DNA of 64,000 nucleotides from Motilibacter rhizosphaerae (GTDB lineage: Bacteria > Actinomycetota > Actinomycetes > Motilibacterales > Motilibacteraceae). The stretch spans positions 1 to 64,000 of the forward strand of contig NZ_SGXD01000005.1 of the NCBI RefSeq assembly GCF_004216915.1, written 5' to 3'. Below are positions 5,949-32,982 of this stretch, piece after piece. The notes beneath the pieces are model-generated. The model was not told where the DNA came from. It was given only the letters and a program-made list of their open reading frames with translations, and did not search any database. The stretch's first letter is position 1; each line of letters begins with the position of its first letter. Made by a program: the position numbers and the translations under genes.

Positions 5949-6719
5949 TCAGGACTCCGGCTCCAGGGCGACGGCGGAGCGGGGGAGGTCCCCGCAGGTC
6001 CGGCCGCGGGCAGCGGCGACGCGCTGGTCGTCACCGCTGGCTGAGCGGACGACCGTCTGCGGCGTGCCGTTGCGCGCGGTCGACCCGTCGGCGGCGACGG
6101 TCACCGGCGTGCGCGTGACGGTCCAGCTGCCGCCCGTCTCCCGGGCGTCCTCGCCGTAGAGCACCCGGTCTCCCTCCGGCCCGTCGCAGGCCAGCCCGGT
6201 GCCGACGTCGGTGAAGCCGAAGCTGAAGGAGTACGGCCGCCCGTCCACGCCCGGGACCGGGACCAGCCGTCTCGCGCGGCCGCGGACGACGTAGGCGTAG
6301 AGCTGTGCCGAGCGGCCGGTGTCCAGCAGCACCACCGCTGCGCCGCCGACGAGCCGCGCGGACGAGGCCCGGGCAGAGATGGGCGAGGCACTGGTGAACG
6401 TCGTCGACGTGCCACCGTGCCCGCTGGTGCGGACCCCGAGCAGCCGGCGCCCGCCGTCGTCGGCCAGCCAAAGCGTGTCGGGACGACCGTCCCCGTCGAG
6501 GTCGACGCCGGTCGCCGTCCCAGCACCCGCGGGGATCGCGCCGCTGCTCTCCTCCGGGGCGGGCGTCGCTCCGGTCGAGGCCGGAGTGGAGGGGGCTGGC
6601 GCCGGCGCAGTGCCAGCCGCGCTCCTGGGACCGGCTGCTGGCGAGGAGGTGCCGCACCCCGCGAGCAGGGCGAGCAGCCCGAGGGTGACGACGGGGGCGA
6701 CGGGCGGACGGGTTCTCAT
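5949..6719 (-). CDS. Lipoprotein with VCBS/FG-GAP-like repeat motif
   Basis: This 256-residue predicted lipoprotein has lipobox LLAGC (Cys22) after a hydrophobic helix, then a Ser/Pro/Ala-rich linker to about residue 65. The motif DLDGDGRPDTLWL is the calcium-binding-like loop seen in VCBS/FG-GAP repeats, and the rest is predicted beta-rich. Two later cysteines (GLACDG, GRTCGD) may form a disulfide. It is likely tethered outside the membrane. It is divergent from the sigma-factor gene, with ~220 bases between them. Function unknown. Confidence 0.7.
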   Translation of the reverse strand: MRTRPPVAPVVTLGLLALLAGCGTSSPAAGPRSAAGTAPAPAPSTPASTGATPAPEESSGAIPAGAGTATGVDLDGDGRPDTLWLADDGGRRLLGVRTSGHGGTSTTFTSASPISARASSARLVGGAAVVLLDTGRSAQLYAYVVRGRARRLVPVPGVDGRPYSFSFGFTDVGTGLACDGPEGDRVLYGEDARETGGSWTVTRTPVTVAADGSTARNGTPQTVVRSASGDDQRVAAARGRTCGDLPRSAVALEPES

Positions 6720-30275: not shown

Positions 30276-31772
30276 ATGAAGGAGGGCTTCGGCCGGGTGC
30301 CGGCGGAGGATGCCGTCGGGCCGCTGGTCCTCGCGCTCGACGTGGGCTCGACCGCGAGCCGGGGCGACGTCTTCGACGCCACGGGACGCCCGGTCGAGGG
30401 CGGGCGGGTCAAGAAGCCGCACGCGTTCACCACCGCGGCGGACGGGACGTCGCAGATCGACCCGGACCAGGTGGTGGCCGAGCTGCGCGACATCATCAGC
30501 GAGCTCGCCGGGCGGCGTAGGCACGCGGAGATCGGCGGCGTCGCGCTCGACACCTTCGCCTCCTCCCTCGTCGGCGTCGCGGAGGACGGCTCGGCGCTCA
30601 CGCCCTGCTACACGTACGCCGACTCCCGCTGCTCCGCGCAGGCGACGCAGATCCGGCGCGAGCTCGACGAGGCGGAGGTGCAGCAGCGGACCGGGTGCCG
30701 CATCCACACCAGCTACCTCGCACCGCGGCTGCGCTGGCTGAAGGAGACGGACGCGGCGACGTTCGGTCGCGTGCGGTGGTGGATGTCGCTGGGGGAGTAC
30801 GCGTACCTCTCCCTGATCGGGGCCACCGCGGCGGGCACGTCGACCGCGGCCTGGACCGGGATGCTGGACCGGCGGACGGGGGCGTGGGACGCCGAGCTGC
30901 TCGCGGCCGCGGGCATCGCGGCCGACCACCTGTCCGAGGTACGCGACCCCGACCGCCCGCTGACGACGGCGGGCGGCGCGACGGGCGCGTGGCCGGCGCT
31001 GGCCGAGGCCCGGTGGTTCCCGCCGATCACGGACGGCTTCGCGAGCAACCTCGGAGCGGGGGCGGACGACGAGGACTCCGCCGCAGTCGCTGCCGCCACC
31101 AGCGGTGCCATCCGCGTGCTGGTGCACCAGGTCCCCGAGCGGATCCCGTCGGGCCTCTGGTGCTACCGGGTCGATGCGCGCCGCTCGCTCCTCGGTGGAG
31201 CGGTGAACGACGTCGGCCGCGTGGTCAGCTGGCTGGAGAGCACCGTGCAGCTCGGCGGGGCGGACCCCGACCAGGTGCTGGCCGCGGAGCCGGACCCGGC
31301 CACACCGCTGGTCCTGCCGTACCTCTCCGGCGAGCGGGCCACGGGCTGGGTCGCAGACGCGCGGGCGACGTTCGCCGGGGTCTCGGCCGCGACCACGGGC
31401 GCGCAGCTCTTCCGTGGCGCGATGGAGGGCGTGGCGATCTCGTACGCCCGCATCGCTGATCAGCTGCGCACCGTCGCCAGGCCCGGTCGCATCCTCGCCA
31501 GCGGGCGGGTGACGCAAGATGTGCCTGCGTGGCAGCAGATCCTCGCCGATGTGCTGGAGGCGCCGGTCGAGCCGGTCACCATCAAGCGCACGACGCTGCA
31601 CGGGACCGCGCTGCACGCCCTGGAAGTCCTCGCGCCCGATACGGAGCGGACTCCTCCCTCGACAGGCCCGACCTTCACGCCCTCGCACGAGCGCGCGGAC
31701 TACTACCGGGGCCGGGCAGCGGCGTACGACAGCCTGTACGCCGCGGTCACCGCGCACGGCTCGTCGACGTGA
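30276..31772 (+). CDS. FGGY-family carbohydrate kinase (gluconokinase-like)
   Basis: This 498-residue sugar kinase of the actin-like ATPase fold begins LVLALDVGSTASRGDVFD (phosphate loop 1). It has the substrate-side DTFASSLVGV and the C-terminal ATP-side stretches FRGAMEGVAISYARI and RILASGRVTQDVPAWQQILADVL. The last is the usual FGGY_C signature with Gly-rich turns. Gluconate or a related polyol acid is the probable substrate. GGGAGGGG lies 8 bases before ATG 30276. No partner transporter is adjacent. Confidence 0.9.
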   Translation: MKEGFGRVPAEDAVGPLVLALDVGSTASRGDVFDATGRPVEGGRVKKPHAFTTAADGTSQIDPDQVVAELRDIISELAGRRRHAEIGGVALDTFASSLVGVAEDGSALTPCYTYADSRCSAQATQIRRELDEAEVQQRTGCRIHTSYLAPRLRWLKETDAATFGRVRWWMSLGEYAYLSLIGATAAGTSTAAWTGMLDRRTGAWDAELLAAAGIAADHLSEVRDPDRPLTTAGGATGAWPALAEARWFPPITDGFASNLGAGADDEDSAAVAAATSGAIRVLVHQVPERIPSGLWCYRVDARRSLLGGAVNDVGRVVSWLESTVQLGGADPDQVLAAEPDPATPLVLPYLSGERATGWVADARATFAGVSAATTGAQLFRGAMEGVAISYARIADQLRTVARPGRILASGRVTQDVPAWQQILADVLEAPVEPVTIKRTTLHGTALHALEVLAPDTERTPPSTGPTFTPSHERADYYRGRAAAYDSLYAAVTAHGSST

Positions 31773-31788
31773 GCAGGTTGGGGGCCCT

Positions 31789-32151
31789 TCAGCCCGTGGG
31801 TGTCTCCGGGCAGCCGGGCCCGCGGAGGTAGACCGCCGCCGTGCCACCGCCGCCGGTCGCCGTCCTGGTGAGCCTGCCGTCGGCGTAGACCTCGGTCTCC
31901 CTCCCGCTCGGCACTGGTGCCTCGAACACCCCGCCCGCGGGGACGGAGCCCGCCGCGACCCGCACGCCCTGCTGGCGGAAGTCGAGCTCGACCTGCTCGT
32001 CTGCGGGGATGCCCTGGCGCGGGGAGACGCAGACGGCTACGCGGTACGTGTGCGGCGGGTGCGAGGGCGCGCTGCACCCGGCCAGCAGGACCAGCGCCGC
32101 CGCAGCAGCAGGTGCGGCGCTGCGCAGGCACGCCCGGAGCCGTCGCTGCAC
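31789..32151 (-). CDS. Small lipoprotein, unknown function
   Basis: This predicted lipoprotein has 120 residues from GTG 32151 (basic QRRLRACLRSAA, hydrophobic AAAAALVLLAGC, Cys26). ATG 32187 would add 12 residues. The mature part is beta-rich (YRVAVCVSPRQG, VELDFRQQGVRV, TEVYADGRLTRTA) with a terminal CPETPTG. It is convergent with the kinase gene and divergent from the DUF4396 gene, with the hairpin-rich interval between them. No family recognised. Confidence 0.65.
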   Translation of the reverse strand: MQRRLRACLRSAAPAAAAALVLLAGCSAPSHPPHTYRVAVCVSPRQGIPADEQVELDFRQQGVRVAAGSVPAGGVFEAPVPSGRETEVYADGRLTRTATGGGGTAAVYLRGPGCPETPTG

Positions 32152-32224
32152 GACGACATCCCACCACGATGCCCGCGCGCTGCGCATGTCCCTGCTGATC
32201 GGGGGGTGCCAGCGCACGACGGGA

Positions 32225-32385
32225 AGCAACCCGCCGCCACGAGGACGTACTGGCATGGGCGTCGCGGCGGGTTGCTCTGCGTGGTGGCGGTGGCTGTGGC
32301 GACACTCGCCGAGGGGAGCAGGACCGGGCCGCGGGGAGCACGCGCGTTCCCCGCAGCAGGGGTCTGCTCCCCTCGGCGCGTGTCG
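32225..32385. repeat. Nested inverted repeats upstream of the DUF4396 gene
   Basis: Two large hairpins are visible. The first has 13-bp perfect arms (32225-32237 and 32264-32276). The second has 22-bp arms with one mismatch (32300-32321 and 32364-32385) enclosing a smaller stem (32331-32337 with 32348-32354) around ACGCGCGT. There is no coding signal in 32188-32466. They may terminate transcription coming from either side or form an RNA structure. Confidence 0.75.
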
Positions 32386-32440
32386 CGGAGGGTCGTCGGC
32401 GCGAGGACTCAGCGGGCGGGCCCCTCGACACTGCCCCCCG

Positions 32441-32460
32441 ATACCCCCCAGGGGTACACT
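32441..32460 (+). promoter_or_regulatory. CsoR-like operator overlapping a -10 box
   Basis: ATACCCCCCAGGGGTAC (32441-32457) has the A/T-flanked C-tract/G-tract form of CsoR-family operators. TACACT (32455-32460) is a -10 candidate placed so that transcription would begin at or next to the ATG at 32467. A repressor on this site would cover the promoter. The CsoR gene itself is not in the window. Confidence 0.6.
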
Positions 32461-32466
32461 AACGGC

Positions 32467-32982
32467 ATGTTCGAACAGCGACCGACCGGCTCCCCGTCCG
32501 CTCACCACCACGAGGGTCATGCGGGGACGGCGCCCACCAGCCCCACCGAGCTCACCCGTCTCGCGGTGTCGGCGACCCTGCACTGCCTCACCGGCTGCGC
32601 CATCGGCGAGGTGCTCGGAATGGTCCTGTCCACGTGGTGGGGCTGGGGCAACGCCGCGAACATCGCCCTGTCGGTCGTTCTCGCCTTCGTGTTCGGGTAC
32701 TCCCTGACGATCGCCCCGGTGCTGCGCTCGGGGCTGCCGTTCCGGCAGGCCGTGAAGGTAGCCCTCGCGGCCGACACCCTCTCGATCGTCACGATGGAGG
32801 TCATGGACAACCTCGTCATCATCGCCGTCCCGAGCGCTCTCGACGCGGGGCTCTCCGACCTGCTGTTCTGGGCGTCCCTGGCGGCCTCGCTCGTCGTCGC
32901 GTTCGCGGTCACGGTCCCGGTGAACCGGGCGCTCATCGCTCGGGGCAAGGGACACGCGCTCGTCCACGAGTACCACCACTGA
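32467..32982 (+). CDS. DUF4396 integral membrane protein, possibly metal-responsive
   Basis: This 171-residue protein has a His-rich N-terminus (SAHHHEGHAG), about four transmembrane helices, and a His-rich C-terminus (HALVHEYHH). The first helix contains HCLTGCAIGEVLGM, with His/Cys residues able to bind metal, as in DUF4396 proteins. The start has no ribosome binding site and lies 6 bases after a -10-like box, so the mRNA may be leaderless. The CsoR-like operator upstream and the His clusters suggest a copper or related metal role. That is inference; the family has no established function that I know of. Confidence 0.8.
   Translation: MFEQRPTGSPSAHHHEGHAGTAPTSPTELTRLAVSATLHCLTGCAIGEVLGMVLSTWWGWGNAANIALSVVLAFVFGYSLTIAPVLRSGLPFRQAVKVALAADTLSIVTMEVMDNLVIIAVPSALDAGLSDLLFWASLAASLVVAFAVTVPVNRALIARGKGHALVHEYHH

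Follow-up and report, generated by a model that had tools for sequence, protein, structure and literature searches.

The window, a 64-kb stretch of DNA, carries a stand-alone gene for a membrane protein of the DUF4396 family, and control of this gene by copper (Cu(I)/Ag(I)) through CsoR is highly likely. We consider its product probably to be a CsoR-controlled copper-handling membrane protein, and DUF4396 has very probably been overlooked as a component of toxic-copper handling in these bacteria. Two independent regulatory signatures, CsoR operators in actinobacteria and putative CueR/HmrR promoters in proteobacteria, give this unassigned membrane family a testable role in copper homeostasis.

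A type-2 CsoR operator overlaps the promoter of the DUF4396 gene

The initial annotation had assigned positions 32441-32982 to a CsoR-like operator overlapping the -10 box TACACT, which stands six bases ahead of an ATG with no ribosome binding site between, and to a DUF4396 membrane protein behind it. The coordinates are correct and each of these elements was recovered (Table 1). The operator is a perfect one, as its core, TAC CCCCCAGGG GTA, follows exactly the type-2 rule of an inverted repeat flanking G/C tracts. The -10 hexamer ends six nucleotides (AACGGC) before the start codon at 32467, a gap into which no Shine-Dalgarno sequence fits. This is the geometry of a leaderless gene, and the ATG is predicted to be the transcription start.

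The gene ends with a TGA codon at 32980-32982. Its 171-amino-acid product matched PF14342 at profile positions 5-141 of 141, scoring 139.9 bits where the curated cut-off is 27, which bears out the family assignment, and this was the sole DUF4396 match in the genome. The neighbouring genes encode an FGGY kinase, a short unassigned ORF, a WD40-like PD40 protein and a GNAT acetyltransferase. A long ORF that runs through the promoter (31519-32982) was also considered as the gene and was rejected because no orthologue match extends upstream of the HCLTGC domain and its tail.

Table 1. Features of the DUF4396 gene and its promoter in the window
Feature	Position	Strand	Remarks
Possible weak -35 element CTGCCC	32431-32436	+	18-bp spacer; 3 of 6 consensus bases; a sequence reading only
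Type-2 CsoR operator ATACCCCCCAGGGGTAC	32441-32457	.	TAC-X9-GTA core at 32442-32456
-10 element TACACT	32455-32460	+	Shares bases with the 3' arm of the operator
DUF4396 gene, HCLTGC subfamily, 171 aa, predicted leaderless	32467-32982	+	PF14342 match; -10-to-ATG spacing
His-rich N-terminal tail AHHHEGHAG	32500-32526	+	Predicted cytoplasmic
TM1 motif H39-C40-L-T-G-C44-A-I-G-E48	32581-32610	+	Candidate intramembrane Cu(I) ligands
TM3 motif D103-T-L-S106-I-V-T-M110-E111-V-M-D114-N115	32773-32811	+	Helix 92-120, alignment A2
C-terminal His cluster GKGHALVHEYHH	32944-32979	+	Predicted cytoplasmic

The genome encodes one CsoR, in an operon with copZ and copA

Genome-wide operator counts were obtained by pattern searches. 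The exact sequence TACCCC-N4-GGGTA occurs once within the 64-kb window, and TACCC-N5-GGGTA occurs exactly twice in the 4.3-Mb genome, in the promoters of the DUF4396 gene and of csoR. The latter is the only gene of the CsoR family (PF02583) in the whole genome (C1:893998), and its own operator lies at C1:893937-893951. The csoR promoter (ATACCCCCAGGGGGTAC, -10 TACGCT, six nucleotides, GTG) is identical in architecture and spacing to the DUF4396 promoter, and the operator is followed by csoR, copZ and copA, the last encoding a Cu-type P1B ATPase. The initial annotation had suggested looking for csoR, copZ and copA nearby; in this genome none of them stands beside the DUF4396 gene, as all are located on another contig, and it is in other genomes that they were found adjacent (see below).

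The CsoR protein, encoded at L018:8963-9256, contains TYCIDV and HLHHC and thereby the copper Cys/His/Cys ligand pattern (C..HxxxC). Among NCBIfam models it came closest to RicR, with 144 bits, which is below the cut-off of 175. PF02583 also includes RcnR, InrS, CstR, FrmR and NreA (PMC12724321), and the operator could be real while the sensor is another CsoR-family type responding to nickel or cobalt, persulfide or formaldehyde. We regard this as very unlikely, because the one PF02583 gene in the genome has the copper ligand pattern, shares an operon with copZ and copA, and scores far above FrmR (36 bits) and RcnR (22 bits) with the RicR model. HMA-domain matches were found only twice in the genome, both inside the csoR-copZ-copA operon. 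Since there are two exact operators, one CsoR gene and no HMA match in the genome outside this operon, the visible CsoR regulon of the organism, as read from its genome, is csoR-copZ-copA plus the DUF4396 gene.

Genes for the cobalt transporter components CbtB and CbtA were also seen directly upstream of the csoR-copZ-copA operon (L018:7538-8631, contig C1).

The operator is conserved upstream of many DUF4396 genes

We examined three samples. The first comprised the best 80 related genes from 84,980 species genomes, chosen by similarity to the query, and an operator was scored where an exact TACCC-N4..6-GGGTA lay between -330 and +60 relative to the start of the tblastn match. An operator was present upstream of 59 of these 80 genes, in more than 20 genera, and 21 had none of their own; among the hosts are Streptomyces, Kitasatospora, Lentzea, Saccharopolyspora, Actinokineospora, Micromonospora, Actinoplanes, Nocardioides, Cellulomonas and Phycicoccus. 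The remainder of these loci, 879 kb in all, held 20 such sites, and several of these head copper genes. In the second sample, drawn for kinship of the genomes, 10 of 14 HCLTGC-subfamily genes (the window gene included) had the operator upstream. The link between DUF4396 and CsoR had been an inference of the initial annotation, which named absence of the operator from orthologues as the result that would speak against it; we looked for such absence, and in both samples most genes carry the operator.

The third sample consisted of every TACCCC-N4-GGGTA in 13 of the kin-sampled genomes. Nine of the 44 sites precede a DUF4396 match by at most 400 bp, where 0.003 would be expected (binomial P ~3e-29, a value that ignores phylogenetic non-independence), and 12 of the 44 adjoin a CsoR-family gene. 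The reversed pattern, used as a control, yielded 0-2 sites per strand and genome. These numbers bear on the reading that the operator is a chance palindrome in G+C-rich DNA. Base composition predicts a few such 15-mers in a 4-Mb genome, so that location and conservation in orthologues carry weight rather than the count. Chance is nevertheless scarcely credible as an explanation, given that both genomic copies are equally spaced from a start codon, one of them that of csoR, that the operator is conserved in many genera, and that sites fall before DUF4396 genes far more often than expected.

The position of the operator relative to the promoter is also conserved. Of 67 DUF4396 loci with an operator, 48 have a TANNNT hexamer that shares bases with the operator's GTA, as against 15 of 203 TA positions taken at random. 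An in-frame ATG or GTG follows the -10 element after 5-7 nt in 15 loci, including the window, compared with 3 for the other two frames combined. Many other operator-bearing loci, Streptomyces among them, have a leader of ~20-50 nt.

In Streptomyces-type leaders (L078, L081 and L093 before the DUF4396 match at 6001; L019 on the reverse strand, again upstream of its DUF4396 match), the operator is followed immediately by an inverted repeat of 8-10 bp. This repeat (GGTTCCTGC..GCAGGAACC) would give a 5'-terminal hairpin; four of them, folded alone, gave -15 to -20 kcal/mol with z of -1.5 to -3.4. It may act as an mRNA stabiliser or as a second operator.

Copper control of DUF4396 appears to be common and not fixed, gained or lost over time, because a genome of the same genus (G001) and another family member (G002) have HCLTGC-subfamily DUF4396 genes without the operator, despite a csoR with the operator in each. 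In the kinship sample, the operator is missing from all three genes that belong to a second subfamily (HCGAGC or divergent). These genes (L023, L033 and L032; HCGAGC...ADVLSLTAFEVG or further diverged) keep the H-C core, and the second subfamily may bind another metal or may not be regulated by copper. Two further variants were observed. At L030 (G051:C1, ~1308236-1308631), a DUF4396 gene lies behind an operator and then a second near-match, and its product has a longer C-terminal extension that resembles an added membrane helix. At L035/L036 (G016:C1:5067677-5068025), a second DUF4396 copy is in two pieces with a TGA and has apparently decayed.

Copper genes and CueR/HmrR-type promoters accompany DUF4396 in other genomes

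Among the best 80 loci, copA lies within 6 kb of DUF4396 in 15, copZ in 13 and csoR in 10. Of the 21 loci that have no operator of their own, 8 (L038, L041, L044, L045, L085, L090, L100 and L110) have one or more of csoR, copZ and copA close by. On the Kineococcus radiotolerans plasmid pKRAD01 the gene order is DUF305, csoR, copZ, copA, DUF4396 and F510_1955 glycosylhydrolase, with tandem operators before csoR. On the Streptomyces plasmid pFRL5 the order is DUF6153, DUF305, F510_1955 and DUF4396, and an operator precedes DUF4396. A Streptomyces clavifer plasmid carries DUF4396 followed by a gene for a four-helix-bundle copper-binding protein, and a more distant DUF4396 gene on a haloarchaeal plasmid has HMA, azurin-type and DUF302 genes in its vicinity. 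A term search of the Kineococcus copper proteomics paper turned up none of the plasmid genes around DUF4396.

DUF305 and the F510_1955 glycosylhydrolase thus recur beside DUF4396 on the unrelated plasmids pKRAD01 and pFRL5, one of which also has csoR-copZ-copA. The recurrence of this set suggests a mobile copper-tolerance module.

A different arrangement was found in proteobacteria. On an Ensifer plasmid the order is copZ, DUF4396 and copA, and each gene is preceded by a MerR-type promoter with a 19-bp spacer (TTGACCTTCCAACGGTGGGAAACCTCATGTT; TTGACCCTACAACGGTGGGAAGCTCTAGCTT; TTGACCTTCCCATCGTTGGAAGCCCCATCTT). Promoters of the same form (-35 TTGACC, a dyad-bearing 19-bp spacer, then -10) precede DUF4396 in two genomes (L132 and L133) from the class and phylum of the Paracoccus genome (TTGACCTTCTAGTCTTGGGAAGGTTCATCCT and TTGACCTTCCCATCATGGGAATGTCTAAGCT). 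Judged by their form, as established in work on CueR, we take these boxes to be of the CueR/HmrR type. As an independent regulatory signature tying the subfamily to copper, these putative promoters point the same way as the CsoR operators. In Paracoccus itself (L126) we found no CsoR operator, no CsoR and no CueR-type box, and at L127 neither a CsoR operator nor a CueR-type box.

The protein has His-rich tails and a conserved intramembrane motif pair

The His clusters SAHHHEGHAG and HALVHEYHH and the HCLTGC motif that the initial annotation had singled out are all present, and HCLTGC falls, as it had said, within the first predicted helix. AlphaFold2, run on an alignment of 72 sequences (A2), gave four long helices (26-58, 62-87, 92-120 and 132-160) with a mean pLDDT of 85. 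Both tails should be cytoplasmic (N-in, C-in), because the N tail, the 2-3 loop and the C tail carry positive charges (subfamily means of 1.7, 2.3 and 2.2), which the 1-2 and 3-4 loops lack (0.0 and 0.03). The N tails of the subfamily contain 19% His on average versus 0.8% in the core, and in the C tail H163, H167 and H170 are kept in 70, 67 and 68 of the 72 sequences.

Conservation is highest within the membrane. In TM1, H39 and C40 are invariant (72/72), and C44 (71/72) and E48 (69/72) are nearly so; C40, C44 and E48 share one face of the helix. In TM3 the corresponding values are 71/72 for D103, 72/72 for S106, 70/72 for M110, 71/72 for E111, 69/72 for D114 and 68/72 for N115. Together the TM1 and TM3 residues look like a candidate Cu(I)-capable intramembrane site, with TM1 at the inner half and TM3 towards the outer half.

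An alternative use of these residues would be redox chemistry. The two conserved cysteines lie four residues apart next to a histidine, and copper stress damages thiols, so that a copper-induced membrane redox or repair enzyme, in which a redox-active C-x3-C supports thiol or quinone chemistry protecting respiratory proteins, is conceivable. It is nonetheless improbable: C-x3-C places the cysteines one helical turn apart inside a helix, unlike the CxxC arrangement of DsbB and VKOR, and, as weak additional evidence, no DsbB or VKOR fold was among the matches listed.

Structure comparisons did not narrow the function. The protein had no sequence relatives in the PDB at E<=1 and no Foldseek matches at E<=0.001, and the best VIA-align hit (Z 7.5) was chain 8q3v_C of a methyltransferase complex, which is within the background for helical bundles. 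The matches from both programs were weak helical-bundle ones and were not used as functional clues.

Proposed mechanism and role

In the mechanism that we propose, apo-CsoR made from the csoR-copZ-copA operon would bind TAC-X9-GTA across the -10 element at low copper and block RNA polymerase. Cu(I) bound by CsoR would cause its release from the DUF4396 operator, and a leaderless mRNA would then be made from the AUG, coordinately with transcription from the csoR-copZ-copA promoter of the same design. The DUF4396 gene would thus be a single-gene unit of the CsoR regulon. Its product would be a four-helix inner-membrane protein with both termini inside, whose His-rich cytoplasmic tails may collect surplus copper. 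HCxxGC of TM1 and D..S...ME..DN of TM3 would form a thiol/His/acidic intramembrane site for the onward passage of Cu(I), most likely to the outside, with DUF4396 serving as an accessory to CopA.

That the biochemical activity is transport or efflux is plausible, and we hold it with a little less than even confidence. Fold comparisons gave no match supporting a transporter, and a protein of 171 amino acids with four helices is small for one, so that it would probably need to oligomerise. We propose only tentatively that proteins of the HCLTGC subfamily export or transfer Cu(I)/Ag(I) at the inner membrane and constitute a new class, without sequence relationship to P1B ATPases and the known copper permeases, that came under CsoR in actinobacteria and, independently, under CueR/HmrR in proteobacteria.

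The protein could instead be a copper-controlled membrane store or chaperone, in which the His tails and HCxxGC bind Cu(I) at the cytoplasmic face and hand it to CopA or hold it. The predicted cytoplasmic side of the tails, the partnership with copZ and copA in some genomes and the small four-helix size all fit such a protein. We think it less likely, because the most conserved residues (H39, C40, C44, E48, D103, S106, M110, E111, D114 and N115) are intramembrane and spread over two helices, which exceeds what binding by the tails would need.

Comparison with known systems

The operator is of the type described for CsoR of S. lividans, a TAC-X9-GTA inverted repeat flanking G/C tracts, and the regulation of CsoR, CopZ and CopA is common to both (PMC3902906). 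Three sites were reported there, at csoR (csoR-4375), copZA1 and copZA2, none of them before DUF4396 (PMC3902906), whereas here a stand-alone DUF4396 gene is the predicted second target. Further putative CsoR genes were named later in a paper on S. coelicolor. Neither this paper nor the S. lividans one lists DUF4396 as a CsoR target, and those strains may themselves lack a DUF4396 gene.

The promoter type is already known, because leaderless cases of the CsoR family have been mapped in Bradyrhizobium and Mesorhizobium. In the csoR-cueA divergon of Bradyrhizobium liaoningense, a CsoR box lies over the -10 element as in the window, and csoR mRNA is leaderless, with a start that was mapped to the A of AUG there and is predicted here; the genes in that divergon are csoR and a P1B ATPase, and here DUF4396 is added (PMC5057107). 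The leaderless Mesorhizobium nreAXY genes are under NreA, a nickel repressor of the CsoR/RcnR family (PMC12724321). Their operator between -35 and -10, leaderless transcript and metal induction have predicted counterparts here, and they differ in the nickel sensor and in having efflux genes of other families.

Pfam lists PF14342 (DUF4396), which matches the window protein over its whole length, as a family without assigned function. In the literature searched, DUF4396 is named in one paper only, as flanking an Acidihalobacter metal-resistance cluster (PMC7760498); the search found no prior tie of the family to copper and no paper naming PF14342. Many actinobacteria would gain a second target of the CsoR regulon, and a one-gene, leaderless, copper-switched unit would make a clean reporter of CsoR control. 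The regulatory circuit is of a known kind, and what is new, within the literature searched, is the placement of the DUF4396 family in the CsoR regulon and in copper handling.
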